64,000 bases of DNA from Daphnia pulex (lineage: Eukaryota > Arthropoda > Branchiopoda > Diplostraca > Daphniidae): the NCBI RefSeq assembly GCF_021134715.1, contig NC_060021.1, positions 10,014,501 to 10,078,500 of the forward strand. Reading direction: 5' to 3'. Below are positions 11,201-34,694 of the stretch, piece by piece. Numbering within the stretch: position 1 is the stretch's first letter; the number at the start of each line of letters is the position of its first letter. A program made the position numbers and the translations under genes. The notes beneath the pieces are model-generated. The model ran no database searches. It saw only the letters and a program-made list of their open reading frames with translations, and was not told the origin of the DNA.

Positions 11201-14200
11201 TCAGATGAAAGTGACGATGAAAAAAATAAGGGAGAGAAAAAGAAATCTGTCGGATTGGGCTTTAAAATGCCAAAGCTCAGTGCCAGTCCCAAAACTGAGT
11301 TCAATCTGCCTGACGTCAAAGCCGAAGTAAACGTGAAAGCACCAAAGACAGAAGCATTGAAATTGGAGGGCAATTTTGATTTAGATGAAGGCGACCAATA
11401 CAAGAAATCTCCTTTTATTGTCAAAATGCCTGCCCTCAACCCAGTGAAGCCGGAAATGCAGTTAAACGTATCCGCACCCAAAGATGATTCACACAGCGAC
11501 GACAGCGATTCGGAAGAAGAGAAAACCAAGAAGGGATTTAAACTGGGATTTAAACTTCCCCAATTATCCATGCCACAGTTGAGCATGGGTGGGAAAAGTG
11601 AAGGTCTCCATGCCGACTCCACCTTGAATGTTAAAAAACCAGAACTGGACGCGCCTTCCATTGATACTAATGTTTCTCTTCCCGAAGTAAACATTTCAAC
11701 GAAGCAAAAGGGTCGTTTTGAAACTGACTTCAACATGCCATCCTTTTCCGCTGACAAAAAGACAAGCGACGACAGTAGCGATTCCGAAGACGAGAAATCA
11801 AAATCGAAAGGATTGAAACTTGGATTCAAAATGCCAAAGTTATCCATGGGAGGGAAAGGCAATGTTGATCTTGATGCGGATGCTGCCATCATGGTGAAAC
11901 AACCCGGATTAGATGTATCCTCAGTTGACGCTGAAATTTCACTTCCCGAAGTAGATGTGAAAAAGAAGGGAAGTTTTGGATCCCATTTCAAAATGCCAAC
12001 TTTTTCCACCAAAGCTGACGTAAGTGCAAGCGCCGAGCAGGTTGACAAAAGCGGCGACAGTAGCGATTCAGATGACGAGAAATCAAAGAAAGGATTGAAT
12101 CTTGGCTTCAAAATGCCAAAATTATCCATGGGAGGAAAAGGCGACGTCGATCTAGATGCAGATGCTTCCATCAAGATGAAAAAACCTGAATTAGATGTAC
12201 CCTCAATTGATGCTGATGTCTCTTTTCCAGAGGTAGATGTTACAACAAAAAAGAAGGGAAGCTTTGGATCCCATTTCAAAATGCCAACTTTTTCAACCAA
12301 AGCTGAAATCAGTGCAGCTGGTGGTGAGCAGATCGACACAAGCGACGATGACAGCGATTCAGATGATGAAAAATCAAAAAAGGGACTGAAACTTGGCTTT
12401 AAAATGCCAAAATTATCCATGGGAGGTAAAGGTGATGCCAATCTCGACGCGGATGCTGCCATCAAGGTGAAACAACCCGAAATAAACGTTCCCTCAGTTG
12501 ATGCTGAAGTTTCACTTCCTGAAGTAGACATCACGACAAAAAAGAAGGGAAGTTTTGGATCCCATTTCAAAATGCCAACCTTTTCCACCAAAGCAAATGT
12601 GACTGGCGCCGAACAAAATGACACGAGCGACGATGATAGCGATTCAGGGGACGAGAAATCAAAAAAGGGGCTGAAACTTGGCCTTAAAATGCCAAAATTA
12701 TCCATGGGAGGAAAAAGTGACGTCGATTTGGATGCGGATGCTGCCATCAAGATGAAACAACCCGAATTAGATTTACCCTCAGTTGGCGCTGACGTTTCTC
12801 TTCCCGAAGTAGACATCACAACGAAAAAGAAGGGAAGCTTTGGATCCCATTTCAAAATGCCAACCTTTTCCACCAAAGCAAATGTAAGTGGCGCCGAACA
12901 AGTTGACACGAGCGAAGATGATAGCGATTCAGGAGATGACAAATCAAAAAAGGGGCTGAAACTTGGCTTTAAAATGCCAAAATTATCCATGGGAGGGAAA
13001 GGTGATGCCAATTTCGACGCAGATGCTGCCATCATGGTGAAACAACCCGAATTAGATGTACCATCAATTGACGCTGAAATGTCACTTCCCGAAGTAGATG
13101 TTACAACAAAAAAGAAGGGAAGTTTTGGATCCCATTTCAAAATGCCAACTTTTTCAACCAAAGCTGACATCAGTGCAGCTGGCGGTGAGCAGATCGACTC
13201 AAGCGACGATGACAGCGATTCAGATGACGAGAAATCAAAGAAAGGATTGAATCTTGGCTTCAAAATGCCAAAATTATCCATGGGAGGCAAAGGCGACGTC
13301 GATCTGGATGCAGATGCTGCCATCAAGATGAAACAACCGGAAATAAACGTACCCTCAGTTGATGCTGAAGTTTCACTTCCTGAAGTAGACATCACGACAA
13401 AAAAGAAGGGAAACTTTGGGTCCCATTTCAAAATGCCAACCTTTTCCATCAAAGCAAATGTGAGTGGCGCGGAACAAGTTGACACGAGCGACGATGACAG
13501 CGATTCAGGGGACGACAAATCGAAGAAAGGATTGAAACTTGGATTCAAAATGCCGAAGTTATCCATGGGAGGAAAAAGTGACGTCGATCTGGATGCGGAT
13601 GCTGCCATCAAGATGAAACAACCCGACTTAGATGTACCCTCAGTTGACGCTGACATCTCCCTTCCCGAAGTAGACATCACGACAAAAAAGAAGGGAAGCT
13701 TTGGATCCCATTTCAAAATGCCAACCTTTTCCACTAAAGCCGATGTAACTGCAGGTAGTGGCGAACAGATTGACACCAGTGACGATGATAGCGATTCAGA
13801 TGATGAAAAATCAAAAAAGGGACTGAAACTTGGCTTTAAAATGCCAAAATTATCCATGGGAGGAAAAGGTGACGTCGATTTGGATGCGGACGCTGCCATC
13901 AAGATGAAACATCCCGAAATGAACGTCCCCCCTGTTGACGCTGAAATGTCACTTCCTGAAGTAGACATCACGACAAAAAAGAAGGGAAGTTTTGGATCCC
14001 ATTTCAAAATGCCAACCTTTTCCACCAAAGCAAATGTGAGTGGCGCCGAACAAGTTGTCACGAGCGACGATGATAGCGATTCCGAAGACGAGAAAGCAAA
14101 AAAGGGGCTGAAACTTGGCTTTAAAATGCCAAAATTATCCATGGGAGGAAAAGGTGACGTCGATTTGGATGCGGATGCTGCCATTAAAATCAAACAACCC

Positions 14201-17200
14201 GACTTAGATGTACCCTCAGTTGTCGCTGACGTTTCTCTTCCCGAAGTAGACATCACAACGAAAAAGAAGGGAAGCTTTGGATCCCATTTCAAAATGCCAA
14301 CCTTTTCCACTAAAGCTGGTGTATCTGCAGGCGAACAAATCGACCCAAGTGACGAAGATAGTGATTCAGATGACGAAAAATCAAAAAAAGGATTTAAACT
14401 TGGACTGAAAATGCCACAGTTGTCCATGAGTGGAAAAAATGACGGCAGTTTAGATTCAGACTATACTGTCAAAGTAAAACAACCTGATCTGGATATCCCT
14501 TCACTCGATGCAGAAGTCTCACTTCCCGAAGCAGAACTTTCGACGAAAAAGAAAAGTAGCTTTGGATCCCATTTTAAAATGCCAACCTTTTCCACCAAAG
14601 CGAATGTAAATACGATCCAAGTTGAGAAACACGACGACAGTAGCGATTCAGAGGATGAGAAATCAAAGAAAGGATTGAAAATTGGTGTCAAAATGCCTCA
14701 GATATCTACTGGTGTTAAAGGCGATGTCAATTTAGATTCAGATTCTACTATCAAAATAAAACAGCCTGAATTGGACGTACCCTCAATTGATGCTGTCCTA
14801 CTTCCTGAAGTTGATGTTACGACGAAGAAGAAGAGTAGTTTCGGATCCCATTTTAAAATGCCTTCGTTTTCCACCAAAGCCAACGTTAGCGGAGCCGCAA
14901 AAATTGAAACAAGCGACGACAGCAGCGATTCAGATGACGAGAATTCAAAGAAAGGATTAAAACTAGGAGTCAAAATGCCTCAGATATCTACGGGCGTTAA
15001 AGGCGACATCAATCTAGATTCTGATTCTACCATCAAAGTAAAGCAACCTGAATTGGATTTACCCTCAATCGATGCTGGAGTTTCTCTCCCCGATGCAGAT
15101 CTTTCGATTAAAAAGAAGAGTAGCTTCGGATCCCATTTTAAAATGCCTTCCTTTTCTACGAAATCCAATGTAACAGTGAGTGGAGTTGAGGTTCCAGAAG
15201 TAAATATGGTTTCTCCTCGATTGCAGACACAAGAAGAGGAACATGGTTTTTCTGTAACTGGTGATGAGGATTCGGAAAAGAAAAGTCATAAAATTGGCAT
15301 AAAATTACCTAAATTTCAAACACGACAGAGAAATGCTGAAGTAACTTTACCACAGGTGGAACTCAGAACCGAGCATTCTTCCGATGAAGAAGACAATGAC
15401 AAAGAGTTGAAAGTAAAAGTTAAGAAGCCCAAATTCGGAATTAAACTACCAGAATTCAACAAACCGAAACTAGATGCAGGAGTTAATATCCAATCTTCAA
15501 ACCTTACTGGAAATATAGGTTCTGATGTTGATTTCCCACGAACCAGTATTGAGATTAATCAGCCCGCAGCGATCAGCTTCGAAGATACTTCAAACATTGA
15601 TATTCAAGTTGGAAATATTGACGCTGAAGTCGCTAAGGTAAATGCCCAAATAGCTCAAGTTCAAGCCGAAATCGACATTCAGTCAGGAAAACAAAAGGCA
15701 AAAATTGAAGACGACGAATCCAGTTCTTCGTCGTCGGATAGTGAAACTGAAAAAAGAACCAAAACGTCCGGCATTAATTTTGGATTGAAGTTACCGAAGT
15801 TCTCGCTAGGCAAAGAAAAGCCCGAAGTGGAGCCTAAAGTTGACGTCAGCATGCCCACTGTTTCACTGACAACAAAGAATAATGGCGACGACATGACATC
15901 ACCATCTCTTTCCAGTTTGGAAGTGGAACCTGTCAAGTTAGAAGGTGGCCATGGTAGTGAAAAGGAAAAGAAGAAATTTAGTCTTGGTTTGAAAATGCCA
16001 AAATTTCCATCGAAGGGGAGCGCTGTAGTCGTCGAAGGTGACGTTGGATCTAGTTCCAAAGATGTTGACGCTGCAATTGCACCGAAGCCTCTTAAAGTCA
16101 ATGTCAAAGCGCCTAAAATGAAATTAAAAAAGAAGAAAGGAGAACAGCAGCAATCGTCATCCAGCGATAGTGACAGCGATGAAAACAACGACGAAGACGA
16201 TCAGCCTAGAAACAAAGATGCCAGTGGTAACACTCAATTGATGGGAGTGGAAGTCAAATTACCACGGGTTCAAGTGTACAAGAACGTTGAATACCAAGAT
16301 GCCGAAAAGGGTCATCACGACAGTAGCTCTGATGAAGAGGATGAAGTGAAGGATATTAAAAAAAACATCGGTGCTCGGTTCGGTGTCAAACTGAAAAAGC
16401 CTAAAATGTTTTCCAGTAGCAAAATAGAGATTACTGGCAAGAACGATTCGGGTAACAGCAGCAGCCTTCAACCGGAATGGAAATTGCCTCGAGTCGATCT
16501 TCGCCGTGCATCAAAGTCATCCGACCAAGAGCTTAGTATTGAAGTTGATTTGGATGGAATAAGTGAACAACAAAAACTTGAGCAACTTTCGCCATCAGAA
16601 CGAGCCGAAGCGATCAGACGTGATTCGAAATCAAGTGCTGGAATTCGCTTACACTCGCCGAGTTACATAAGTCTAATGCCAAGTCCACGCTCCAAGAAAC
16701 CAAACCTAGAAATGCTGGATGTTGATTCCTCACCAAAGCTGCTGTCCGTTACTCGACTAGATCCTACTCCTCCGATCGAGAGCTCCGTTAAAATGCAACA
16801 ACCAATGTATGGCAATATTGAACTGACCACCACCATGACTGGCCCCCAAGTTTCGGCTAGCCAGGTTCCTTCATCCGTTATTATGGCTTCGGATGCTGTC
16901 AAGATGAAACGTGGCCCACCCACTCCCGCTCGACGCTTCATAGTTCCATTTGAACCGAATTCTGCCGTCTTACGCGTCGCTCCCCCTGTTATTACAACAG
17001 ACGTAACAGGTAAAATAATAAAATAAGCTACTGTAAATTATTATCCGTTCTATAATTCTGAATTGTTTTTTTTTCTTCTCGTTATTTTCTTTCACGCAGT
17101 GGAAGGCGGATTTTCAACACTGATATCTGAAGATGTATCTAGCGAATTAGAAGCCAACATTGGTGATCCATCCTTCGCTTCCGGCAACAACCAACAAGCT

Positions 17201-18507: not shown

Positions 18508-19734
18508 AAGTCAATTCAATGGGAAAGGCGCCAACAGCTTAATCCGAGTGAGAGCATTAAACAATTCACAATCCATAACTAGACTACTAAGATTTTATGT
18601 TGCGTGTTTTTTTTTCACTTATTATTTAGTATCTTGCTTGTAATAATTTTAAATCGAAAATTAAATTTCGTAAAGGAAAAATGGGAAAACTCAATCAAGA
18701 TCAAAATTCAACGGCGCCCAGTGAGTTATGTGTAAAGCATAATTTAAAAAAAGGAAATATCTTAAAATCATTATAGTTTGGTTTTTTGCATGAAACAAAA
18801 AGTGCCTATTTCGTCATGAGAAATATTGCTCCCATTTTCATTTGTATAACAATGTGTTATTGCGAATGCTTCTATTATTTCTTTCTGACATCTGACTAAT
18901 CGATCCTCCTATTTGATTCAATCAGACAGTATCATTAAAACACCTAATTATCTTATCGCTAAAATCTATATGGTATACCGTACGAAATAGCATCACGCTC
19001 TTTGAACTTTATTCCTTTTATTTTTTCATGGTTTCATTAGTATAACCAAATAGTGTGTAAGTTGCTCAAAAAACCAAAAAAAAAAATCGCAAAATTAAGC
19101 TTTCCAAAGTTGAAAAGTAAGGAATTAATTTGGAACATCAGTTATCTGGATTCATGGCACAAGTTTTACGAAATGAAATCCAAAAAAAAGCAAATATTGA
19201 ATCCTGTCTGTCATCGACATTTAACCGACTAGTTTAAGATGGAAATTTTGTACATAAGGAAGAATTAGCGGCATTTGTCTGGAGACTTTTACATTCTAGT
19301 TTTCTGTCGATAAAGTCTGTGTATAAATGCGTCCAGATTTTCATTTATGGATACATATTTAACTTTAAAACATATTTTATGCACCCCAGAACTTACTTTG
19401 CTACCCATTTTTTAAGTGCATGTGCTGTATCTAATCTGACAAGAGCGGTCTTTATCCGTGTTCCGCCCTGTCGATATTTGGTATCGCAATGTACCCTTTT
19501 CTGTAGACCACTAAGTATACACCCCATTATAACTCCATATTTTGTGACATTTGTTATCCGACATTATCAATACACTCTTGTTTTGAATATAGCTGCTCAC
19601 TACTAGCAAATGTATCTTTTTTTTTTGTTAGCCATTTAACGTTATAACCGTGTATCCGTTAACGGCTTAATCTTTTACTCTTTCTCTATTCTTTGGCTCT
19701 CTCTCTTTTACTTAATCTTTTGCGAATGCTCCAC
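18508..19734. other. 3' UTR and intergenic spacer
   Basis: Runs from the stop of the AHNAK-like gene to the outer edge of the large inverted repeat. A variant poly(A) signal ATTAAA lies at 18660-18665. The rest is AT-rich with no supported gene. Confidence 0.4.
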
Positions 19735-20221
19735 CCTAGATGGCGAAATCGTCGAGCTATTTTGGAAAACTGTTGTCTGCTCTGAAAGAATAACAATATG
19801 GCGACACATATTGCGAGGTGGGGTTGGGTTAGTTAACGGCTAACGGGCCCGTTAGGCCATTACCATGTTAAAGGAGTGCCATTACGTCAACAATTCGTGC
19901 AGTACAAAACTAGCAGTGCAAAGCACTTTATGTGACATCTCGTTGTTAAGAAATTGACGGCGGTGAAGAAATTATAGGAAAGACCGTAAGACGTGATTTT
20001 ACTCGAGCAGCCCCATCGATTCCAACAGTTGCTTGAAAATTTGGCCAAGACCGAATTTGGAAAACCCCTTTTGTCAAAAGCAATACAATTTGAGGCAGAT
20101 GGTTCTCACGGTTCAGTTGACAAACGAGCATTAGGTGCATAATGTTATACCGCCTTGTTTTTGTCATAAAACACACTAATGATTTGTTACATTTTAGGCA
20201 AAAACAAATCCTTTCTGGATC

Positions 20222-20449
20222 TTGATGAAGAAGTGGAGCCCTAGAGATACCTTTGAGAAATCAAAGTTGAGAAAGAAGAGAACAAACTTATTCCACACCC
20301 TGCAAGACTGTCATGTTGATTTACAGGGAATGTTCTGGCGGATTCCCCATCAAATAGAAATAGTCATGTTAGTGCTGCTTTTATATTTTACTATTTGCTT
20401 TGTGGTTACTTTTATCGTTAAATTTTATGGCTATTATCATCTGTCCTGA
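20222..20449 (+). other. 75-codon open frame with a membrane-like C-terminus (left arm)
   Basis: An open frame with a basic N-terminal half (KLRKKRTNLFHTLQDC) and a hydrophobic stretch (LVLLLYFTICFVVTFIV) that could cross a membrane. The identical frame is at 32552-32779 on the other strand, but the whole region is homogenised, so identity is no proof of selection. An acceptor-like TTTTAG precedes it at about 20198. No family is recognised; a gene fragment is more likely than a gene. Confidence 0.2.
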
Positions 20450-21164
20450 TGATACAATCCGTTAAAGAGATGCAGAGTGAAGTTCTTTTTCCCAGTTCGG
20501 AGCAAATCTTTTTTGAAAAACTTCCCCTAAAATAGTATCTGAACTTGCTTCAGTGGCCGTGCTCCCTTTTTGCTCCATAGACCGAGGCGGGAAGTTAGTT
20601 CCTCATTTGAATCTCTTCGACTTTTTCGTAGCTTACTACAACTGTTACTAAAAAAAAATCTCGATAATTGCAAGGTGGCTATCAATACTACTGTCTCATC
20701 AAGATATTGCATTAGCATAAATAGATCAATTGGATCATAGGCATTTCAAGTTTTTACGTCAAGTTGCTGAATAGACAACACTTTTTTTAGCTAACGATTC
20801 TCGTTGCATTCTTGAGTAAATATTGTCATGAAATTTATCCAGCTAAAGTTTTCGGTGACATGGGTGCCTGTCGGTGCCTGTGACAATTGGGATAAAATGG
20901 TCCAATAATCCAATAGGGCAACCTGTATCTTTCAAAACCAAGGAAATCCTATTAGCAATGTAGTTATTTTGACAAACTTTTGTTTTTATTACTGTGATAT
21001 TTAAGGTGGTATAGTATTATTAGGTAGGACATTTCCGGAAAAAATGGTTTCTCATTTGTTTCTATTGGTTGCTATTGTTATATTGTTTTAGTATTAGTTC
21101 TCATGACTAAAACAAATCCTAGCTCACACCCCCAGTAAAAAGGATAACCTAGTCCTAGTGATGG

Positions 21165-21385
21165 CAACCTAGTTTTTTTTGAAAACTAGGTATTACTATT
21201 ACTAAATACCTAGTATTTTAGAAAAAGTAGGTATTACTAGGTTATTATACCTAGTATCAAAATAAATTCAACTAGGTATCGGGAAAAAAAACTAGGTTTT
21301 TACTATTACTAGGTATAAACTAGGTAACTAGGTAAAGTACCTAACTAGGTAAAAATACCTAGTTACCTAGTTACCTAGTTTGGAT
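21165..21385. repeat. CTAGGTA-type subterminal repeats, left end of the hAT element
   Basis: Many direct and inverted copies of ACCTAGT / ACTAGGT separated by short A-rich spacers. A matching array is at 22018-22190. Subterminal repeats are known transposase-binding sites in hAT elements; that role here is inferred. Confidence 0.8.
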
Positions 21386-21565
21386 ATTTCTCTGTTTATA
21401 CTTCCAAATTACATAAAAAACACAAATACAACAACTTGCAACTGAATTTTTTCTTTTTATTGCAATTTCTGTCCCGCTAAGATCAATGATAGGATAGAAA
21501 GGACTAACGACTAAGCGATAAGAACGGAAATTGAAAATTAGAGACTGAGAATTCAGATTCAGAAG

Positions 21566-21784
21566 TCAAAGTTTTTGTTGAATCGGCAAAGTGTTTGATT
21601 CTACCAAGACAGGGGAGACATTTCTTTTCTTGCCTTTGCAAGAACGACCACTACACGAAAAAAGACGCTCTGCAGAGGCAGAAGTAGCTGGCATGGCGAG
21701 ATACTGCAAAGCAATCGGCGACAACTTAAATAGGAAATCTCCCAGACTTTTCTCTCCAGAAAACGAAGGGGTCCACTTCCTCAT
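21566..21784 (-). pseudogene. hAT transposase C-terminal dimerisation fragment
   Basis: A 72-residue frame contains SPIALQYLAMPATSASAERL followed by FSCSGR, the conserved core of the hAT-family C-terminal (hATC) dimerisation domain. The rest of the transposase, including the catalytic core, is absent, so the element cannot move by itself. Confidence 0.85.
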
Positions 21785-22017
21785 GAAAATCTCCTTTGTT
21801 TAGTGTTTCAGTTTTAGTTTTTCAGTGATTCAGGATTTCAGTCTACCATAAACCATACGTTTGACTTTGAATTCAAGAAACAATGGCTGCCGGCCGGGCC
21901 TGTGATTTCTGATGCCTGTCTAGTGTCTACCAGAAACGACCAGAAAGCAGAGAAGCTTACTAAAATTAAATAAAAGCATAGTTGCCATTTATTTGACAAT
22001 GCTGCAAAAAAATGGAA

Positions 22018-22190
22018 AATACCTAGGTAATTACCTAGGTAATCATTTTTCAAAAACTAGGTATTACTATTACTAGGTATACCTAGTAATAGATTTTTTC
22101 CCGAAAACTAGGTAAAAGTAGCTGAAAAAAAACTAGGTATTACTAGGTAACTAGGTAATACTAGGTATTACTAACCTAGTAATGCCACCA
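22018..22190. repeat. CTAGGTA-type subterminal repeats, right end of the hAT element
   Basis: Counterpart of the array at 21165-21385, in the last 175 bp of the element, with the same ACTAGGTA/TACCTAGT words. Confidence 0.8.
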
Positions 22191-22738
22191 CTACCTAGTC
22201 CGTGTTTGTAATTCTGTTTCATAAAGTTTCTTTAAATTCAAACAAACCTACAATTACAAACTTTAGAAAGTGATATATGAGGGCCGGGCTGGCACTTTTA
22301 AAGTTGCAAACTAAACCTTTTATTACATTTTCTTTAAAATTAGCATTAATCTTTCAAGTCAGCTTTGATACACAATCTAAAGTTTTTGAGCTAGGGTCGG
22401 TCATAAAAAGTGCGTTTTATGGCAGATTTGCGTTTGCGAGTGTCTAAAGACTGGGTCTAAAGAACTGAATTAGGATTGCTGTCGAGTTCCAACGCAGACA
22501 ATAATAAACGAAAGTTTTGATATCGAAATTCCAGTTTGATGCAACCAATTATTTTTAATGTGTTTTACAGGATGTAAAGGAATTACCCATTCATGTCAAC
22601 AAACAGACCGTCTTCGTCACACCTGAATAAGAGTGAAAGCAATAAGTCCGAAGTCGTACAAGATTTCCATCGTGGCCCCAATTCGTCGGCTTGGATTTAA
22701 CCATTTATCAAACCTCTCTTCAAAAGAATGTCGGTTTT

Positions 22739-23165
22739 TTGGTATTCATTTTGATATTGGTTGTTGTAGACCCATTCCCCAGATGTATTCCCATTCCCCA
22801 GCAACGTAAACCTGCAGAAGGAAAGGCCAGTTTTCATGGCCTTCATACTCGAAGGTCACGGAGATTCATTACGTTAAAAGTGTCATAGTGTAGAGGTTGG
22901 GTGAGAACGGGATGTGTTTCATCATAATCAAGCAGGTATAATAGCCGCAAGGCTCAGCCATTTGGTATTCATTTTGATATTTGTTGTTGTAGACCCATCC
23001 CCAGCAACGCCAACCTAAAGAAGAAAAGGCCAGTTTTCATTTTCTTCATGCTCGAAGGTCACGGAGATCATTACATAAAACGTATCATGCGACGGCGGAG
23101 AGGTTGGGTGAGAAAGCTACGTGTTTCATCATTATCAAACAGGTAAAATACCCGCAAGGCTTAAG
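22739..23165 (+). repeat. Two tandem upstream modules (about 222 and 204 bp) before the Tyr-rich gene promoter (left arm)
   Basis: The block beginning GGTATTCATTTTGATATT at 22740 recurs at about 22963. Both copies contain AGACCCAT..CCCAGCAACG, AAGGCCAGTTTTCAT, CTCGAAGGTCACGGAGAT, AGAGGTTGGGTGAGAA and a CCGCAAGGCT end. The second copy stops about 25 bp before the TATA box. They may be a duplicated enhancer; the motif AAGGTCA resembles a nuclear-receptor half site. Confidence 0.75.
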
Positions 23166-23189
23166 AGGTGAGGGTGATCAAAAAAATCG

Positions 23190-23226
23190 TATAAAAAGGA
23201 GAGAGAAAAGGCCAGAGACATCAGTC
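23190..23226 (+). promoter_or_regulatory. TATA box and TCAGT initiator of Tyr-rich gene 1 (left arm)
   Basis: TATAAAAA at 23190-23197 is followed 33 bp later by TCAGTC at 23221, an arthropod initiator with the start A at 23223. The spacing is that expected for TATA-Inr promoters. It lies about 88 bp before the start codon at 23311. Confidence 0.75.
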
Positions 23227-24229
23227 GAGTGAGCATCTCCGACACGGCAACAACTGCTGTGGCCTATCTGTCACCATCTGCCTTCTTCACTGTATTGCCA
23301 GTTAGCACCCATGGGTAAATATTCTGTTTTTTACATTGAGATTGTTATCAATCCTACTGTTTTCTTTTTTTAAGCATGTATTTAATATTTATGTTTGAAT
23401 TTGTTAACTGTCTAGATAATAAGGTGTCGTATGCTGTTGGGTGTTGTATCGTTGATGGCTGGGTCGACCACTGGTGTACCGATGTCCTTACTACACAAAA
23501 GCAACTAACGCAACGACCAGTTACTGTACCGAGGTCTACAAGTACAACACTACTAAAGCACCGGAGTCCACAACTCACGCTGCCCCGATCCACTACAGTG
23601 ACGCCCTGAAGTATTACTCTGCCCCGAGTTACTACACCACCAAGGGGACGGAGCAGGACTGCGCATGCTGCCCCATTCTACTACACCAAGGCTCCCAGGT
23701 ATTACTCTGTTCTCAGCTACTTATTGCACCTATTTTCCTAAATACTACTCTGTTCTCATCTGCTACACCGAGGCTCATGCTGATAACTCCACCAAATCGG
23801 TCGAATACTACACCGAAGCGGCAAAGTACTTCTCTGCCCCGATCTACACAACCACAACTGAGGCGGCCAAGGATGACGCAGTCCAGACTTACTACACAGA
23901 AGCTGCCCTTTCGTGCTACGTTGAACAGAAATACTACACTGATGCTCCAGTCTACTACACCACGACCTACGCTACACCGCAGCCCCGAAGTACTACACCG
24001 AAGAAGCTGCCTAATCCCCAACAACAGCGTATGCTGCCTAGTTTACTACACCGAGGCTCCCAAGTACTACATCACTAAGTCACCGGAATTCTACACGTCT
24101 ATGTATGCTGCCCATGCCTACTACACCGAGGCGCCGCATTACTACAACACTGAAGCGCTCAAGTACAGCACTACAACCTACGCTGCCCCGAGCTACTACA
24201 CCTACGTCCCGAAGTATTACTGTGCTTAA
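23223..24229 (+). pseudogene. Secreted Tyr/Thr-rich YYTEAPKYY-repeat gene 1, broken (left arm)
   Basis: Exon 1 runs from the initiator to ATGG|GTAAAT (23311-23314) and exon 2 starts near 23416. The body encodes repeats of the type SYYTEAPKYYS and TTYAAPSYYT, ending SYYTYVPKYYCA and TAA at 24227. The repeat frame is split: one frame carries the start and end of the repeats, another carries 23740-23990, with at least two switches. The signal-peptide part (MLLGVVSLMAG) is in a third frame that stops soon after. The promoter is intact, so RNA may still be made. Such proteins are presumably extracellular or structural (Tyr-rich, cross-linkable); that is inference, and the family's function is not known to me. 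Confidence 0.75.
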
Positions 24230-24322
24230 AAGGAGTCGTCTGGAAAAAAAGAAGTCGTGTCCGAACTGCAGTGCTCCATCTGTCACCAACTGCATTCCTC
24301 ATCGTGTAACCAATTCGCCGTT

Positions 24323-25145
24323 ATGGGTAAATATTCTTATTTTTGAGTTTTGTATCTATTTTTTTTTTTTTTTGTTAATATACCTGTTAATATTTAATAG
24401 TAATGCTAATTTATTTAATGTTTAGTATGGGCGTATGGCGTTGTGCTCCTGTTGGTTGTTGTATCGTTGATGGGTGGGTCGACTGCTGGTGTAGCGATGT
24501 GTCCTTGGTATGGTGGAAACCGAACTACAATGCCGCCGCCGTTCTACACAACTTACGCAACGACCAGTTCCTGCACCGAGGTCATCAAGTACTACACTAG
24601 TAAAGCAACGGAGTTTTAGACCACAACTTACGCCGCCCCGAGCCACTACACTGAAGCATTACTCTGTCCTGAGTTACTACACAATCTAGGCGATGGAGTG
24701 CTACATGGATACGTATGCTGCCCATCCTACTACACCGAGGCTCCTAAGTATTACTGTTCTCAGCTACTTATTGCACAAATTTTCCTAAATACCACTCTGT
24801 TCCCAGGTGCTACACCGAGGCTCCCGCTGATTACTCCACCATAACGGTCGAATACTACACCGAAGCGGCAAAGTACTTCTCTGCCCTGATCTACACAACC
24901 ACAACTGAGGCGGCTAAGTATTACGCGTCCGGAGTTGCTACGCAGAAGCTGCCCTTTCGTGCTGCTTTGAACAGAAATACTACACTGATGCTCCAGTCTA
25001 CCATACCACGACCGACGCTACACCTAGCTACAACACGGCAGCCCCCAAGTACTACACCGAAGAAGTCGCCTATTACACAACTACGTACCCTGCCTAGTTT
25101 ACTACATCGAGGAATTTAAGTATTACCCTGCTCCTAAGTATTCCT
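24323..25145 (+). pseudogene. Secreted Tyr/Thr-rich repeat gene 2, truncated (left arm)
   Basis: Exon 1 ends ATGG at 24323-24326 with donor GTAAAT. Exon 2 begins at 24426 and reads on as a clean signal peptide: MVWAYGVVLLLVVVSLMGGS then TAG. The frame continues with CPWYGG, FYTTYATTSSCTEV and KYYTSKATEF to an in-frame TAG at 24617-24619, giving 65 residues. Beyond it, repeat sequence (TTTYAAPSHYTEA and more) continues with several frameshifts to about 25145. No TATA box is seen close upstream. The truncated 65-residue secreted peptide could still be made. Confidence 0.7.
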
Positions 25146-26305
25146 AAACTGAGGTTCATATTTATTGCAATTATCTCAATTATGCCACCATTACTCATGT
25201 TGCTCCGACCATTACACCGAAATTCTTAAGTATTTTTCTGGATGTGTTGAAAGATTTGATGGAATAAAAAATGATTGATAAATCATAAGTTCATGTCTCT
25301 AATACATTTACTGCTGCTGATTACAAATATTCCAAATGTTATGTAAACTGACAAATAATAAAATTTGCAAAATTCAACTATAAAATACCAAGATTTTCTT
25401 TAAAAAAAGACCAAGAGTATTTTGCTAATTCCAGTTTATTGCCTCAATCGAATACCGCATAATTATATGAATACTCGAATGTCAACAGATAAAATTTTTT
25501 TGTCAGCACACAGTTAACACAGAACAATTTCATAGCATGGATGAAAAAACAACCTAAATTTTTAAATCAGGAACCCAGATGGAACAGCTCAGCTACAACA
25601 GCACAACAACTTCTAGATTACACTTAAACCGCATGCTGCATACAATAGTTCAATCTGTCTTCGTCACACCTTTCACCATTTGGTTGCAACAAGGTAACCA
25701 ACAGCGTTGAAGAAGTGTTTGTTAAACCTATTTAAGAAAAGAAAATTACTTTCGGAAACACAACTGTGTACACATGCATACTCATTGTAACAAAAGAATA
25801 CAAAGTGTAACAGAAAACTACGCAGTCCAACAGAATAACTTTAATATCTGATAAAAAATTTCTATAGTAGCGGAGCAAATTGGGCTACTCTCTAGTCATG
25901 TTAACTAAATCTGTACTTTTGTAAGACATTTGATTAAAATAATTACTTTTTGCTGTTGCATGGAATGAGACGTACGTCTAAGGCAGGCAGCGAGACACAC
26001 GAGGCACGCTATTTCAGAAATGTACTGGCACTTCCAAGTCAGAGTTGAATGATTTGGCAACTTGGTTTCTACGTGCTAAATCACCTGTAAAATTTCACAT
26101 CAACATTTTACATTCAATAGCAATAGGAAATTAACAATAAATACTTTTTAATTTTCATCGTGGGAAACGTCACAACCGACAACCCATTTCTGCTGCGTCT
26201 TGGAACAAAATGGCTGTTCCTGGCGAACAAGCGTGAAGCCTGAAGCGTCCCTCTCTGAAGACACTCGCGCTATCTGGTGGACATTATTTCAGCCACTTAT
26301 TCACA

Positions 26306-27432
26306 GCCACCTGTTGACAGCCATTACTCATTAGATAATTGTGTTGAGTTGTTGTCAAAAGTTTTCCTATTTTTCCATGAAAATTACCCATGAATTCATA
26401 AGTAAATTCAAGTTCGTTTCTGTGCTAATTGTTTGTGATGTGATTTATTCCGTATGTGTGCTGGATTAAATTCAAAATTCCTCAATCTAACCTGTAGGAA
26501 GGAACTGGAAAGGAAACAGTGGCATACAGTTGCCTACCATCACTAACACCAACTCTTTTATTAAAAATCTTCGTTCTGCTGAATGCATCATGCAGTTAAT
26601 ACAGGTAAAAACCAAAAATGTATTTGTCACAATTTTTTTTAATACTTGTTCCCAGACTTAGTTAATATTCGTCTAATTATCAGCATTTTCTATTGATCTT
26701 GGTAGGTCACTACCCCAGTGTGGACATGTTTGTTTTTCAACAAATAATTCATTGACATACAAGTATTCTTCTTTCGGTTTTAAACTGTTATTTGATGTCA
26801 TAGTTTGTATTTTCTGTCATAGGGAAAACTATGAAAAATATCATATCATCTTGGCCATGGGTAATCTTCAGGTTTATTGCAGCAGCTTAAGAGAAGAATA
26901 TGAACAAATGCAGGGCAAATACCAACATGTGTTGTATTTTTCTGAATGTTAAACACAAGCAGTAGGTAGCCATTAACTTTAGTTTATCTGATTAATGTTG
27001 GAATATTTATTGACATATTTTCTTTAGATTCAACATGACTAACTGTTTGATGCCAAAGTTGGTTGGAACTCAACTCACTGTACGTACTCTAACACAGATA
27101 ACTGGTGCTGTTGCCTTTCAGCCACAGGCAGGAAAATCATTCTTTTCTTCAGAAAATTGTAAGTTTAATTTTTTGTCTTGACCCCCCCCCCCAACACTTT
27201 CTGTTAATATTATAGATTTTTATGTTGAAAGAGTTACAAAGTGTGAAAAGCTAACTAAAAACTTTGTGTATTTGTGTCATAGGGAAAGCTGCTGGAGTAA
27301 TCTGGTGTTCATGCTCATTTGATTCATTTCGTGCCAGCTAGTGAAAGCCGAAAGGCATGTCAATTCAATTGAGTTGCTCCGTGCTGTCTCGAAGCAAGCA
27401 ATCCAGCCGTTGCGTTCAGTCATTTGGAACAG
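26306..27432. other. Spacer of the palindrome, with exon-like fragments
   Basis: About 1.1 kb that is not repeated. Plus-strand exon-like pieces: 26497-26604 (open, ends in donor GTAAAA; contains SFIKNLRSAECIMQLIQ), 26825-26952 (open after an acceptor; ENYEKYHIILAMGNLQVYCS... to a stop), and 27028-27158 (see separate entry). The phases of the first two do not join, so at least part is decayed. The first two faintly recall FASTKD-type helical repeats; I would not rely on that. Confidence 0.35.
27028..27158 (+). pseudogene. Exon-like fragment with mitochondrial-targeting-like N-terminus
   Basis: Acceptor TTTCTTTAG and consensus donor GTAAGT bound an exon with ATG at 27035. It encodes MTNCLMPKLVGTQLTVRTLT followed by a segment ending SFFSSEN. 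It has no acidic residue until the last few positions, and it has Lys, Arg, Thr and Ser spread between hydrophobics, as in mitochondrial presequences. The next plausible coding piece on this strand is at 27643. What remains of the gene is incomplete, so it is called a fragment. Confidence 0.35.
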
Positions 27433-27642
27433 GAATCTAATGGCTGTGAATAAGTGGCTGAAATAATGTCCACCAGGTGGCGCGAGTGTATTCAGGGACA
27501 GGGAAGCACATCGGCCATTTTGTTCCAAGACGCAGCAGAAATGGGTTGTGAGTTGTGACGTTTCTCACGATGAAAATTAAAAGGTATTTATTGCTAATTT
27601 CCTACTGTTATTGAATGTAATATGTTGATGTGAAAATTTACA

Positions 27643-27760
27643 GGTGATTTAGCACGTAGAAACCAAGTTGCCAAATCATTCAGCTCGGACTTGGAAGTGT
27701 CTGTACATTTCCGAAATGGCGTGCCTCGTGTGTCTCGCTGCCTGTTCTTAGACGTACATC
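27643..27760 (+). pseudogene. Exon-like fragment resembling the N-terminal domain of a mitochondrial calcium uniporter (right arm)
   Basis: After an acceptor (TTTACAG) the frame reads DLARRNQVAKSFSSDLEVSV then HFRNGVPRVS. Beyond that, the fit to the family needs a frame change to read LPVLRRT. The pattern of a beta strand, N-G-[LV]-P, another strand and L-P with basic residues is that of the N-terminal domain of MCU proteins. The inverted copy in the left arm (about 25980-26095, minus strand) has a stop at the strand HF*NS. Both look decayed. The family call is a motif impression only. Confidence 0.3.
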
Positions 27761-28949
27761 TCATCACTTTAACAGCAAAAAGTAATTATTTTCATCAAAT
27801 GTCTTACAAAAGTACAGATTTAGATAACATGACTAGAGAGTAGCCCAATTTGCTCCGCTACTTTAGAAAATTTTGAATCAGACATCAAAAGTTATTCTGT
27901 TGAACTGCGTAGTTTTCTGTTACACTTTGTATTCTTTTGTTATAATGAGTATGCATGTGTACACAGTTTTGTTTCTCGAAAATAATTTTCTTTTTTTAAA
28001 CAGGTATAACAAACACTTCTTTAACGCTGGTGGTTGCCTTGTTGCAGCAAAATGGTGAACGGTGTGATGAAGACACACTGAACTTTGTATGCAGCATGCG
28101 GTCACAGTGTAATCCAGAAGTTGCTGTGCTGTTGTAGCTGAGCTGTTCCATCTGGGTTCCTGACTTAAAAATTTTGGTTTTGCTGTTTGTGTTTTCAACC
28201 ATGCCATAAGAAATTGCTTTGCGAGAGATATTTTGTGTTGCTGAGTTCAAAGTTTGATCTGTTGTCTTTTGAGTCTTCATTCAATCATGCAGTATATGAC
28301 TGAGGCAATCTGATCAATATCAGGTTTGACACAGTCGAGAACTGCTAGATAAAACAAGCTTTCTGCTCCAAACAAATAATGACTTGCATATATCTTGCAT
28401 CATGTTATTATCGCGGTAGAGAAAGCGACAGGCCCCCCCCCCTGGGGGCCACAGGAAAAATAAATGAATGTAAATATTATAAAAATAAAATTTTTTGCAA
28501 TAAAATTTTCGAACTAATTTTTTCTCGATAAATTTTTTAAAACTTTGTGCAGGGGGAATTTTTTTAAATTTTTTTTCAAAAAGAAAAGTCTGGACTTAGC
28601 AGAAATAATTAGGTGTGTGGACTTTGATTTTGGAAAAATATTGATTGTTGGACTTTATTTTTCATGATAGAAAACAATTTATAAAAAGGAAAGTTTGAAT
28701 GTTATTGAAATGTAGAACATGAGTTTGAATTTTTATTGTATTTTGCAAGATTTGTAAGTTTACATAGCACTCAGAAATATTTTCTCATATCATGCAATTA
28801 TCAGCAGCAGGAAAGGTACTTCAGGAGAAAATAGAGACATGCACTTGTGATTTATCAATCAATCTTGTATTTCAGCAATCTTTCAACATATCCAGAGAAA
28901 TACTTCAGAACTTCAGTGTAAAGGTTGGAGCAGCGTAAGTAGTGGTGAC

Positions 28950-29725
28950 ATAATCGGGAGAATTGCAATAAATATGAACCTCAGTTTGGTAGTTGTTTGG
29001 AGCAGAGTAATACTTATTCTTCGATGTAGTAAACTAGGCGGCTTCTTCGGTGTAGTACTTGATGTCTGCTGTGTTGCAGCTAGGTGTAGCGTGGGTCATG
29101 GTGAGGTAGACTGGAGCATCAGTGTAGTATTCCTGTTCAACGTAGCACGAAAGAGCAGCTTTGGTGTAGAAGTCGGAACAGCGTCAACCTTGGCCGCCTC
29201 AGTTGTGGTTGAGTAATCAGCGGTAGCCTTGGTGTAGCACCTGGGAACAGAGTAGTATTTAGGAAAATTTGTGCAGTAAGTAGCTGAGAACAGAGTAATA
29301 CTTACAAGCCTCGGTGTAGTAGGATGGGCAGCATACGTATCCATGTAGCACTCCATCGCCTAGATTGTGTAGTAACTCAGGACAGAGTAATGCTTCAGTG
29401 TAGTGGCTCGGGGCGGCGTAAGTTGTGGTCTAAAACTCCGTTGCTTTACTAGTGTAGTACTTGATGACCTCGGTGCAGGAACTGGTCGTTGCGTAAGTTG
29501 TGTAGAACGGCGGCGGCATTGTAGTTCGGTTTCCACCATACCAAGGACACATCGCTACACCAGCAGTCGACCCACCCATCAACGATACAACAACCAACAG
29601 GAGCACAACGCCATACGCCCATACTAAACATTAAATAAATTAGCAATACTATTAAATATTAACAGGTATATTAACAAAAAAAAAAAAAATAGATACAAAA
29701 CTCAAAAATAAGAATATTTACCCAT
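28950..29725 (-). pseudogene. Secreted Tyr/Thr-rich repeat gene 2, truncated (right arm)
   Basis: Inverted copy: start codon 29725-29723, exon 2 from 29623, the same signal peptide and the same in-frame TAG (29432-29430). After about 29303 it diverges from the left copy, with a deletion of about 70 bp near 29215 and many substitutions. Confidence 0.7.
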
Positions 29726-29818
29726 AACGGCGAATTGGTTACACGATGAGGAATGCAGTTGGTGACAGATGGAGCACTGCAGTTCGGACACGACTTCTTT
29801 TTTTCCAGACGACTCCTT

Positions 29819-30826
29819 TTAAGCACAGTAATACTTCGGGACGTAGGTGTAGTAGCTCGGGGCAGCGTAGGTTGTAGTGCTGTACTTGAGCGCTTCAGTG
29901 TTGTAGTAATGCGGCGCCTCGGTGTAGTAGGCATGGGCAGCATACATAGACGTGTAGAATTCCGGTGACTTAGTGATGTAGTACTTGGGAGCCTCGGTGT
30001 AGTAAACTAGGCAGCATACGCTGTTGTTGGGGATTAGGCAGCTTCTTCGGTGTAGTACTTCGGGGCTGCGGTGTAGCGTAGGTCGTGGTGTAGTAGACTG
30101 GAGCATCAGTGTAGTATTTCTGTTCAACGTAGCACGAAAGGGCAGCTTCTGTGTAGTAAGTCTGGACTGCGTCATCCTTGGCCGCCTCAGTTGTGGTTGT
30201 GTAGATCGGGGCAGAGAAGTACTTTGCCGCTTCGGTGTAGTATTCGACCGATTTGGTGGAGTTATCAGCATGAGCCTCGGTGTAGCAGATGAGAACAGAG
30301 TAGTATTTAGGAAAATAGGTGCAATAAGTAGCTGAGAACAGAGTAATACCTGGGAGCCTTGGTGTAGTAGAATGGGGCAGCATGCGCAGTCCTGCTCCGT
30401 CCCCTTGGTGGTGTAGTAACTCGGGGCAGAGTAATACTTCAGGGCGTCACTGTAGTGGATCGGGGCAGCGTGAGTTGTGGACTCCGGTGCTTTAGTAGTG
30501 TTGTACTTGTAGACCTCGGTACAGTAACTGGTCGTTGCGTTAGTTGCTTTTGTGTAGTAAGGACATCGGTACACCAGTGGTCGACCCAGCCATCAACGAT
30601 ACAACACCCAACAGCATACGACACCTTATTATCTAGACAGTTAACAAATTCAAACATAAATATTAAATACATGCTTAAAAAAAGAAAACAGTAGGATTGA
30701 TAACAATCTCAATGTAAAAAACAGAATATTTACCCATGGGTGCTAACTGGCAATACAGTGAAGAAGGCAGATGGTGACAGATAGGCCACAGCAGTTGTTG
30801 CCGTGTCGGAGATGCTCACTCGACTG
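29819..30826 (-). pseudogene. Secreted Tyr/Thr-rich repeat gene 1, broken (right arm)
   Basis: Inverted copy of 23223-24229 with the same start codon (about 30737 downward), the same frameshifts and the same final SYYTYVPKYYCA and stop. The two copies share every lesion, so the damage predates the duplication or was spread by gene conversion. Confidence 0.75.
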
Positions 30827-30858
30827 ATGTCTCTGGCCTTTTCTCTCTCCTTTTTATA
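30822..30858 (-). promoter_or_regulatory. TATA box and initiator of Tyr-rich gene 1 (right arm)
   Basis: Inverted copy of the left-arm promoter: TTTTTATA at 30851-30858 on the plus strand and GACTGA near 30822-30827. Sequence and spacing are the same. Confidence 0.75.
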
Positions 30859-30882
30859 CGATTTTTTTGATCACCCTCACCT

Positions 30883-31309
30883 CTTAAGCCTTGCGGGTAT
30901 TTTACCTGTTTGATAATGATGAAACACGTAGCTTTCTCACCCAACCTCTCCGCCGTCGCATGATACGTTTTATGTAATGATCTCCGTGACCTTCGAGCAT
31001 GAAGAAAATGAAAACTGGCCTTTTCTTCTTTAGGTTGGCGTTGCTGGGGATGGGTCTACAACAACAAATATCAAAATGAATACCAAATGGCTGAGCCTTG
31101 CGGCTATTATACCTGCTTGATTATGATGAAACACATCCCGTTCTCACCCAACCTCTACACTATGACACTTTTAACGTAATGAATCTCCGTGACCTTCGAG
31201 TATGAAGGCCATGAAAACTGGCCTTTCCTTCTGCAGGTTTACGTTGCTGGGGAATGGGAATACATCTGGGGAATGGGTCTACAACAACCAATATCAAAAT
31301 GAATACCAA
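30883..31309 (-). repeat. Tandem upstream modules, right-arm copy
   Basis: Reverse-complement copy of the two modules at 22739-23165, at the same distance from the right-arm TATA box. Confidence 0.75.
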
Positions 31310-32551
31310 AAAACCGACATTCTTTTGAAGAGAGGTTTGATAAATGGTTAAATCCAAGCCGACGAATTGGGGCCACGATGGAAATCTTGTACGACTTCGG
31401 ACTTATTGCTTTCACTCTTATTCAGGTGTGACGAAGACGGTCTGTTTGTTGACATGAATGGGTAATTCCTTTACATCCTGTAAAACACATTAAAAATAAT
31501 TGGTTGCATCAAACTGGAATTTCGATATCAAAACTTTCGTTTATTATTGTCTGCGTTGGAACTCGACAGCAATCCTAATTCAGTTCTTTAGACCCAGTCT
31601 TTAGACACTCGCAAACGCAAATCTGCCATAAAACGCACTTTTTATGACCGACCCTAGCTCAAAAACTTTAGATTGTGTATCAAAGCTGACTTGAAAGATT
31701 AATGCTAATTTTAAAGAAAATGTAATAAAAGGTTTAGTTTGCAACTTTAAAAGTGCCAGCCCGGCCTCATATATCACTTTCTAAAGTTTGTAATTGTAGG
31801 TTTGTTTGAATTTAAAGAAACTTTATGAAACAGAATTACAAACACGGACTAGGTTATCCTTTTTACTGGGGGTGTGAGCTAGGATTTGTTTTAGTCATGA
31901 GAACTAATACTAAAACAATATAACAATAGCAACCAATAGAAACAAATGAGAAACCATTTTTTCCGGAAATGTCCTACCTAATAATACTATACCACCTTAA
32001 ATATCACAGTAATAAAAACAAAAGTTTGTCAAAATAACTACATTGCTAATAGGATTTCCTTGGTTTTGAAAGATACAGGTTGCCCTATTGGATTATTGGA
32101 CCATTTTATCCCAATTGTCACAGGCACCGACAGGCACCCATGTCACCGAAAACTTTAGCTGGATAAATTTCATGACAATATTTACTCAAGAATGCAACGA
32201 GAATCGTTAGCTAAAAAAAGTGTTGTCTATTCAGCAACTTGACGTAAAAACTTGAAATGCCTATGATCCAATTGATCTATTTATGCTAATGCAATATCTT
32301 GATGAGACAGTAGTATTGATAGCCACCTTGCAATTATCGAGATTTTTTTTTAGTAACAGTTGTAGTAAGCTACGAAAAAGTCGAAGAGATTCAAATGAGG
32401 AACTAACTTCCCGCCTCGGTCTATGGAGCAAAAAGGGAGCACGGCCACTGAAGCAAGTTCAGATACTATTTTAGGGGAAGTTTTTCAAAAAAGATTTGCT
32501 CCGAACTGGGAAAAAGAACTTCACTCTGCATCTCTTTAACGGATTGTATCA

Positions 32552-32779
32552 TCAGGACAGATGATAATAGCCATAAAATTTAACGATAAAAGTAACCACA
32601 AAGCAAATAGTAAAATATAAAAGCAGCACTAACATGACTATTTCTATTTGATGGGGAATCCGCCAGAACATTCCCTGTAAATCAACATGACAGTCTTGCA
32701 GGGTGTGGAATAAGTTTGTTCTCTTCTTTCTCAACTTTGATTTCTCAAAGGTATCTCTAGGGCTCCACTTCTTCATCAA
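32552..32779 (-). other. 75-codon open frame, right-arm copy
   Basis: Same sequence as the left-arm frame at 20222-20449, in inverted orientation. Confidence 0.2.
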
Positions 32780-33265
32780 GATCCAGAAAGGATTTGTTTT
32801 TGCCTAAAATGTAACAAATCATTAGTGTGTTTTATGACAAAAACAAGGCGGTATAACATTATGCACCTAATGCTCGTTTGTCAACTGAACCGTGAGAACC
32901 ATCTGCCTCAAATTGTATTGCTTTTGACAAAAGGGGTTTTCCAAATTCGGTCTTGGCCAAATTTTCAAGCAACTGTTGGAATCGATGGGGCTGCTCGAGT
33001 AAAATCACGTCTTACGGTCTTCCCTATCATTAATTTCTTCACCGCCGTCAATTTCTCCACAACGAGATGTCACATTCTAGTTTTGTACTGCACGAATTGT
33101 TGACGTTATTTATGGCACTCCTTTAACATGGTAATGGCCTAATGGGCCCGTTAGCCGTTAACCCAACCCTACCTCGCAATGTGTGTCGCCATTTGTTTTG
33201 AGCAGACGACAATTTTCCATGACTACCGCGAGATGGAGCACAATTCGACGATTTCGCCATCTAGG

Positions 33266-34694
33266 GTCTAAGTCTAAATAAAATATAAATCTTTTGCAAT
33301 AAAAAAAAAACTGAATAATGCCTTTCTTATGCGTGTTCTTAATGTGTTTATACATTTGGTATTGAAAACCCTGTAATGTGCCCTTCACTAAGTTGTTTAG
33401 AAATAGCTTTAGCATTCCTTTAACAATTACATAGCTGTTTGCTTTGGCATTACTGGCATTACTACTTCTTCGCCCTCTAGTTTCTCCTTGAAATGTGGCC
33501 CAAATGGCTTGCCATATTTAGACCAAGCATCAGTTTGTATGCTACTTGATTGTTAATTCCAGTACACAAATAAACAGGAGAAGACAATAAAATTCGTGGA
33601 ATCTTTCCGCTGCATCGCGAAACATGTATTTGATTTTTTATTAACACATCTGAAATTAGCATTATATACCAGCAGCGCATGAGGTCGACTTTTAAACAGA
33701 AAAAGAGAAAACTGTATATAAGAAGGAAAGACGGTAATACAAGTTATATATTATGTATGATACATAACACAAATATCGAAACCTTGAAACGATTCTTTGA
33801 TCCCCATTTTAATATTTTTTTCCCCGATACAAAAATCAGCCATTGAGAGCTAGTTTACTTGACGTGAGCACTCAATTGATTTACAGTGCAAATAATAATA
33901 TATAGTACAGCTCCAAAGTGAATGAATAAGCCGGCTTCCCATGAATCAAATACTCACCGTGGATTTCGACCAAGCGATGAAGAAAACGACAAATCCCTAA
34001 ACTCTATGAAACAACAAAGATAATAGGATGGAGGAGGGCAAATTAAAATTATGACCTGCAGCGCCACGGTTTAGTAGATCAAATGTGATAAGGGATCAAT
34101 ATCGGGAGGACAGTTAAGACAAATTCAATAATCACAAAAACCAAAAATAACTAAGAAACTGCCAAAAAAAAAAAAAGAACAAAAATCAAAAATTGTGGAG
34201 TGGAGTGTCAACAAAAAGCGCGGATTTAAATTTGGCACTTGGCGATGCTATCTTAATCTTCACAACATAACAGACTTTGCTGGTAGGTTAAAAAAAAAAT
34301 TCCTTCGCGCTAATACGCTTAGCATCAGGACATTCAAAATCAATGTTTAGTGAATCCCATTAAGAGTCCAGATGTGTAAGACAGACGTGTAAGATATTGG
34401 TGAAAGTTTCGATATTCGCCAACAGGTGCTGCCCTTTTCTTATGCAAATTCGATAAGAGCTGCAACAGGAGGAGTAGCTTGCATAGCGCTGACCAGATAA
34501 CCTCCAAAACATTTTTTTCTGGAAAACTTCTGCAAAATCCCGAAGTTAAAAAAGTAAAACGCAAGGCACTCCTTCCTTTTTTGGAGAGAAAACAATCCTG
34601 CTGACCTACACGATGTCTCGTTCTATGTACACATAAAAAGATATTATTTGTTAATCGGTTAGTTTTAGTTTTTCTAACTGGAACGCTTGATCAA
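33266..34694 (-). other. 3' UTR of the pico gene and spacer
   Basis: Follows the pico stop codon on the minus strand. A canonical AATAAA (TTTATT on the plus strand, 33637-33642) would give a 3' UTR of about 1.05 kb. The rest to the palindrome edge is AT-rich with A-runs. No coding exon is supported. Confidence 0.4.

Follow-up and report, generated by a model that had tools for sequence, protein, structure and literature searches.

Recurrent gene conversion between the arms is, with high probability, the best explanation of a family of palindromes in the genome of Daphnia pulex, one of which lies in the 64,000-nucleotide stretch analysed here (hereafter the window; C5:10014501-10078500 of the searched genome, which holds 133 Mb in 13 contigs). 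The arms of this palindrome are nearly identical and group as sisters in their core, they do not group as sisters in their inner part, and both the spacer between them and the architecture as a whole recur elsewhere in the genome.

The inverted arms of about 6 kb facing each other across a 1.1-kb spacer, as described in an earlier note on this DNA, were confirmed by a repeat search, by self-BLAST and by a global arm alignment. The last two methods placed the left arm at 19733..26309 (+ strand) and the right arm at 27441..33267 (- strand), with the 1,131-bp spacer (26310..27440, +) between them. Chance can be ruled out as the origin of the structure, because the repeat search of the window returned inverted matches of 2,091 and 1,186 bp given as 100% complementary. 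The homogenised core occupies 19970..24755 in the left arm (+, including an insert of 1.04 kb) and pairs with 29294..33031 in the right arm (-), at most 20 bp away from the near-identical tract previously noted at 19950-24745 and 29303-33040. Over 19980-24742, the arms differ by one substitution (position 24403), two 1-bp indels and one large insert; per 3,715 aligned bases this corresponds to one substitution and three indels, the third being a remnant of the insert, and to 99.9% identity. The outer fringes (19733..19969, +, and 33032..33267, -; delimited by the arm alignment) differ at 19 of 220 aligned sites, and the inner arms, which escaped homogenisation (24756..26309, +, and 27441..29293, -; arm alignment and inner-arm tree), at 219 of 1457, with gaps outside the core reaching 231 bp in the global alignment. 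The strong divergence with indels claimed for the outer 200 bp or so and the inner 1.5 kb was therefore found, and the divergence is uneven along the arms (a single substitution in the 3,715 core bases), also as claimed.

The core tract lengths of 4.8 and 3.7 kb had been noted correctly; what had been overlooked is that they are unequal because an insert of 1,038 bp (21156..22193, unstranded, from the arm alignment) sits in the left arm only. This insert is bounded by an 8-bp direct repeat, CCTAGTCC, and has inverted ends, TAGTGATGGCA / TGCCACCACTA. Neither the right arm nor the corresponding stretch of another palindrome (P2) carries it, and it most likely arrived, therefore, after the last rewriting of that part of the core. 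From its 8-bp direct repeat and ends we take it to be hAT-like. This transposon-like insert serves as a marker in time for the latest rewriting.

In the genome, at least 30 pairs of convergent arms were counted, 23 of them from searches with arm and spacer pieces and seven from protein searches. In the former, the best 40 candidates of each search were scored and a pair was defined as a plus-strand arm with a minus-strand arm following it on the right; all 23 pairs were convergent, with eight on C5, four on C1, three on C2, two each on C9 and C12, and one each on C3, C7, C10 and C11. The protein searches, run as a check with the best 150 candidates of each scored, added the convergent pairs C4:4497021/4508044, C4:4339317/4349316, C4:5662071/5668040, C4:4165426/4173235, C11:2064703/2071204, C12:9400555/9408302 and C12:10082351/10088071. 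The matches at C4:3881132 and 3899212, 18 kb apart, were left out of the pair count. Copies represented by a single arm were also present among the scored matches, including those on C8. Twelve of the 23 loci were closely aligned (the window palindrome, P1-P8, Q1, Q2 and L043) and the rest were judged by match positions only, while a thirteenth, P9, was obtained in part and stands outside the arm totals. On C7, part of the outer arm of the window is repeated five times within 2415484-2440024 in steps of 6,090-6,091 bp, which indicates 6.09-kb units in tandem array. Judged by titles and the openings of abstracts, no palindromes of this kind were found described in Daphnia.

A near-identical arm core was common to 11 of the 12 closely aligned loci, with 24 substitutions in 47,337 bp (0.05%), a figure to be read with the loci having been drawn from the top-scoring pairs, a choice that favours arms that are alike, and with the core of each locus having been defined afterwards by whichever segment of the arm alignment scored best. 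The individual cores measure 3.7-5.3 kb and carry 0-5 substitutions, that of P6 being split into two stretches of 2.3 and 1.9 kb. The outer fringes are clearly diverged (about 10%) in seven of these 11 loci (the window, P1-P4, Q1 and Q2), and the inner fringes show more than one difference in four (the window, P1, P2 and P7), and in none of the other 11 is the unhomogenised inner part nearly as long as in the window. Within single loci, fringe divergence of about 5-36% stands beside an undiverged core. Since so many of the closely aligned palindromes (11 of 12) possess such a core, the underlying process is probably a recurring one; the earlier proposal that the core had been rewritten by gene conversion is supported, its restriction to one recent event being too narrow. 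The remaining locus, L043 on C11, had been chosen as a suspected exception, its arms scoring unequally against the probe, and was kept apart from the 11-locus total; its arms differ by 56 substitutions in 3,384 aligned bases (1.7%), meaning that homogenisation does not extend to all the palindromes.

The age of the palindrome could be set against the age of its arm identity by comparing paralogous palindromes within the one genome assembly. Across the six loci that entered the between-locus comparison (the window, P1-P4 and P6), core divergence was 5.9-11.5%, except for P3 and P4 (1.5%). In a tree built on 0.8 kb of the core, without Q1, Q2 and L043, the arms within each locus were identical or sisters at all nine two-armed loci, the window arms being sisters with a support of 100/100. 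A tree of 1.9 kb of the inner arm, in which P5 and P6 are represented by one arm each and P9, Q1 and Q2 are absent, placed the window's right arm with P5-P8 (98/98), apart from the left arm, and the sisterhood of the window arms was rejected on this stretch (AU p=0.0146). On the innermost 0.77 kb it was not rejected (p=0.135). For P1, sisterhood was rejected on the 0.77 kb (p=0.003), and its arms were sisters over the 1.9 kb, most of that stretch being homogenised in P1.

The spacer is likewise held in common. That of the window is 97.7-98.2% identical to those of P1-P4 (over window positions 26339-27161), 93.3% to that of P6 and 92.7% to that of P9. The spacers of the window and P1-P4 are 97.7-99.5% identical to one another, with arms differing by up to 12%. 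Because the spacer is shared and the inner arms of the window do not group as sisters over 1.9 kb, the palindrome is older than the identity of its core; it predates the parting of these loci, and a younger core identity is the signature of arm-to-arm conversion. The old inverted duplication postulated earlier is in this way upheld, with spacer and inner arms found again, arranged alike, at other loci and inner sisterhood rejected on the 1.9 kb. Between the window and P1-P4, spacers differ by about 2% versus 8-12% for the arms, P3 and P4 having changed most in their flanks. This slower change of the spacer runs outside what the conversion model predicts; candidate causes are selection acting on the spacer, error-prone repair of the arms and exchange from one locus to another. 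A part of the spacer near 27029-27156 looks exon-like by eye, lying between splice-site-like ends.

An improbable alternative is that the palindromes represent a transposon whose terminal inverted repeats are very long, the arms being identical through recent insertion. Many dispersed copies, the convergence of all 23 counted pairs and the common spacer would all agree with such an element, but the outer limits of homology vary from copy to copy among the copies compared, P2-P4 have flanks outside the arms in common, and the fringes of a single locus are diverged where its core is not. In addition, no target-site repeat was visible by eye at the printed ends of the window palindrome, P1-P8, Q1 and Q2, although old copies may have lost it, and the arm-end motif of the window is absent from P1-P8.

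It is very unlikely that selection on a gene within the arms keeps them identical. The relatives of the arms are indeed annotated as proteins: a protein search gave 99 matches at E<=0.001 to uncharacterised Daphnia proteins, nearly all the relatives being from Daphnia or unnamed metagenome sequences. Among the D. pulex proteins tried, P0015 came closest; its best match in the genome is P4 (98%, 3 of 158 residues differing), in keeping with D. pulex or a near relative. Elsewhere in the family, mainly on C4, some copies have open frames reaching 391 aa, stop-free within the match, so living genes may exist within it. However, the longest open stretch of the left arm, a Tyr-rich repeat of 257 aa (23456..24226, +, in the left arm; 29822..30592, -, 257 aa, in the right), is far exceeded by the core, the same sequence is 6-12% different between loci, and in the arm copies that were read the open stretches do not exceed 257 aa and switch frame, the annotated protein relatives having the same shifted frame. 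No Pfam family matched three open stretches of the window, and the protein motif occurred in none of the five literature matches listed out of 12,098.

An artefact of assembly or polishing likewise seems to us hardly credible: near-identical arms are hard to assemble, yet those of the window are diverged at either end, an insert is present in one of them alone, and the same architecture is found on many contigs with spacers and flanks specific to each locus. A single recent inverted duplication, with the diverged parts arising from later decay or misalignment, would suit the near-identity of the core arms and the result on the innermost 0.77 kb, but was rejected as scarcely tenable, provided that the assembly is right, in view of the uneven divergence, the spacer and inner arms common to other palindromes and the p value of 0.0146 against sisterhood.

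Recurrent conversion between arms would have had as its starting point a decayed gene of tyrosine-rich repeats, duplicated long ago in inverted, convergent orientation, from which palindrome and spacer would have spread together to many places in the genome. For a break in one arm, the template of repair would then be the other arm or, on the sister chromatid, the opposite arm, most of each arm being overwritten repeatedly. Near the ends of homology conversion would tend to fail, allowing differences to accumulate there and to cause further failure, and the inner 1.5 kb of the window may have escaped in this manner. The copying would thus be gene conversion in the course of repair, recurring and presumably without a function of its own.

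From the 0.05% divergence between arms, a conversion rate of about 0.9-1.8e-5 per site per generation is implied at equilibrium, using the D. pulex mutation rates of 2.30e-9 to 4.53e-9 quoted in PMC12926508 and with an upward bias from the choice of loci. This agrees in order of magnitude with the rate of allelic conversion for D. pulex quoted in the same source (6.47e-6), the rate quoted for human Y palindromes in PMC3723533 being 2.2e-4. The single substitution in the window core corresponds to an age of about 3-6e4 generations, with limits from <1e3 to >3e5. No clear signal of GC-biased conversion was seen in the parts of the window or in a 600-bp probe region: GC content was 0.413 in the window core, 0.385 and 0.374 in the inner parts and 0.425 in the whole window, and in the probe region it was 0.433-0.473 at 11 two-armed loci and 0.434-0.438 at three loci represented by one arm.

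The ends of the palindromes and the orientation of the spacer vary among copies. The window spacer has the same orientation in P1 and P2 and the opposite one in P3 and P4. Flank A is single in P2, P3 and P4 and lies on both sides of the window palindrome, while flank B is single in P2-P4, on both sides in P1, and on the left in P6, where the right side has 66 bp of it. Both P3 and P7 carry the spacer's start on either side, and the arms of Q1 and Q2 extend 1.4-1.9 kb past the stretch common to both. Against the arrangement in P2 and P3, the P4 spacer is flipped with respect to flanks A and B (P7 versus P8 being less clear), and P3 and P4 are 98.5% alike in the core and 99.1% in the middle, their flanks being 85.5% and 88.7% alike. 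Inversion between the arms could have produced the flip in P4, and exchange between loci could give the same result. These features would fit repair running on beyond the homologous sequence, together with inversion and inter-locus exchange. It can be suggested, as a tentative and somewhat doubtful extension, that the palindromes remodel themselves, with repair from the opposite arm running into flank and spacer, arms growing in both directions, flanks being overwritten and interiors being swapped between palindromes. In the left flank of P2, just outside flank A, a second copy of the spacer lies in direct orientation (C5:9284195-9285026; 87% identical to that of the window).

This behaviour is already known in kind, and the window palindrome is a new member of a group that is unusually well replicated in Daphnia. 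In the consulted portion of Zhao et al. 2007 (PMC1803023), gene conversion is proposed for inverted-repeat gene pairs of Caenorhabditis which, like those of Daphnia, are convergent (there also divergent), have near-identical arms, are older than this identity and were duplicated as units. The Caenorhabditis arms described there hold expressed genes, whereas the Daphnia arms that were read have no long intact frame, and the test was made there between species and here between paralogous palindromes of one genome. The excerpts from PMC3723533 and PMC6790999 describe human Y palindromes with arms kept alike by conversion, rare inversion and arm growth by duplication of the flanks; these palindromes measure tens of kb and more and reside on a non-recombining sex chromosome, whereas the Daphnia arms are 4-6 kb long and occur in many related copies on several chromosomes. 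The GC bias reported in these sources for human palindromes is not clear in those of Daphnia. The inverted duplicated blocks of parthenogenetic animals such as Adineta vaga and Folsomia candida, proposed in the part of PMC7953838 consulted to permit conversion without sex, resemble those of Daphnia; annotated gene blocks were scored in that study, which names D. pulex as unscorable for want of annotation.

About thirty related palindromes on several chromosomes offer natural replicates for the study of arm conversion, inversion, GC bias and edge decay. Daphnia is a useful setting for this, outside sex chromosomes, as a genus in which clonal lines for mutation accumulation exist and rates of allelic conversion have been measured, and the arm conversion rate estimated above is directly testable there. 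The fact that many uncharacterised Daphnia gene models sit in such homogenised repeats calls for caution. The protein P0061, filed under Mitosporidium daphniae (on a contig of 2,995 bp), belongs to the Daphnia repeat family, and its presence in the assembly of a parasite likely reflects host DNA. On C4, family members with open frames of 198-391 aa, free of stops within the match, were observed at 4339317-4349768, 3881132 and 4497021-4508493, the copies on other contigs mostly containing stops. Elsewhere in the window, an open frame of 3,620 codons at 6164-17023 (+), presumably AHNAK-like, contains 11.9 copies of a 285-bp repeat (11762-15174) and a direct duplication (6826-7958 and 8242-9353, 84%), with an antisense frame of 1,099 codons lying opposite to it at 11164-14460.
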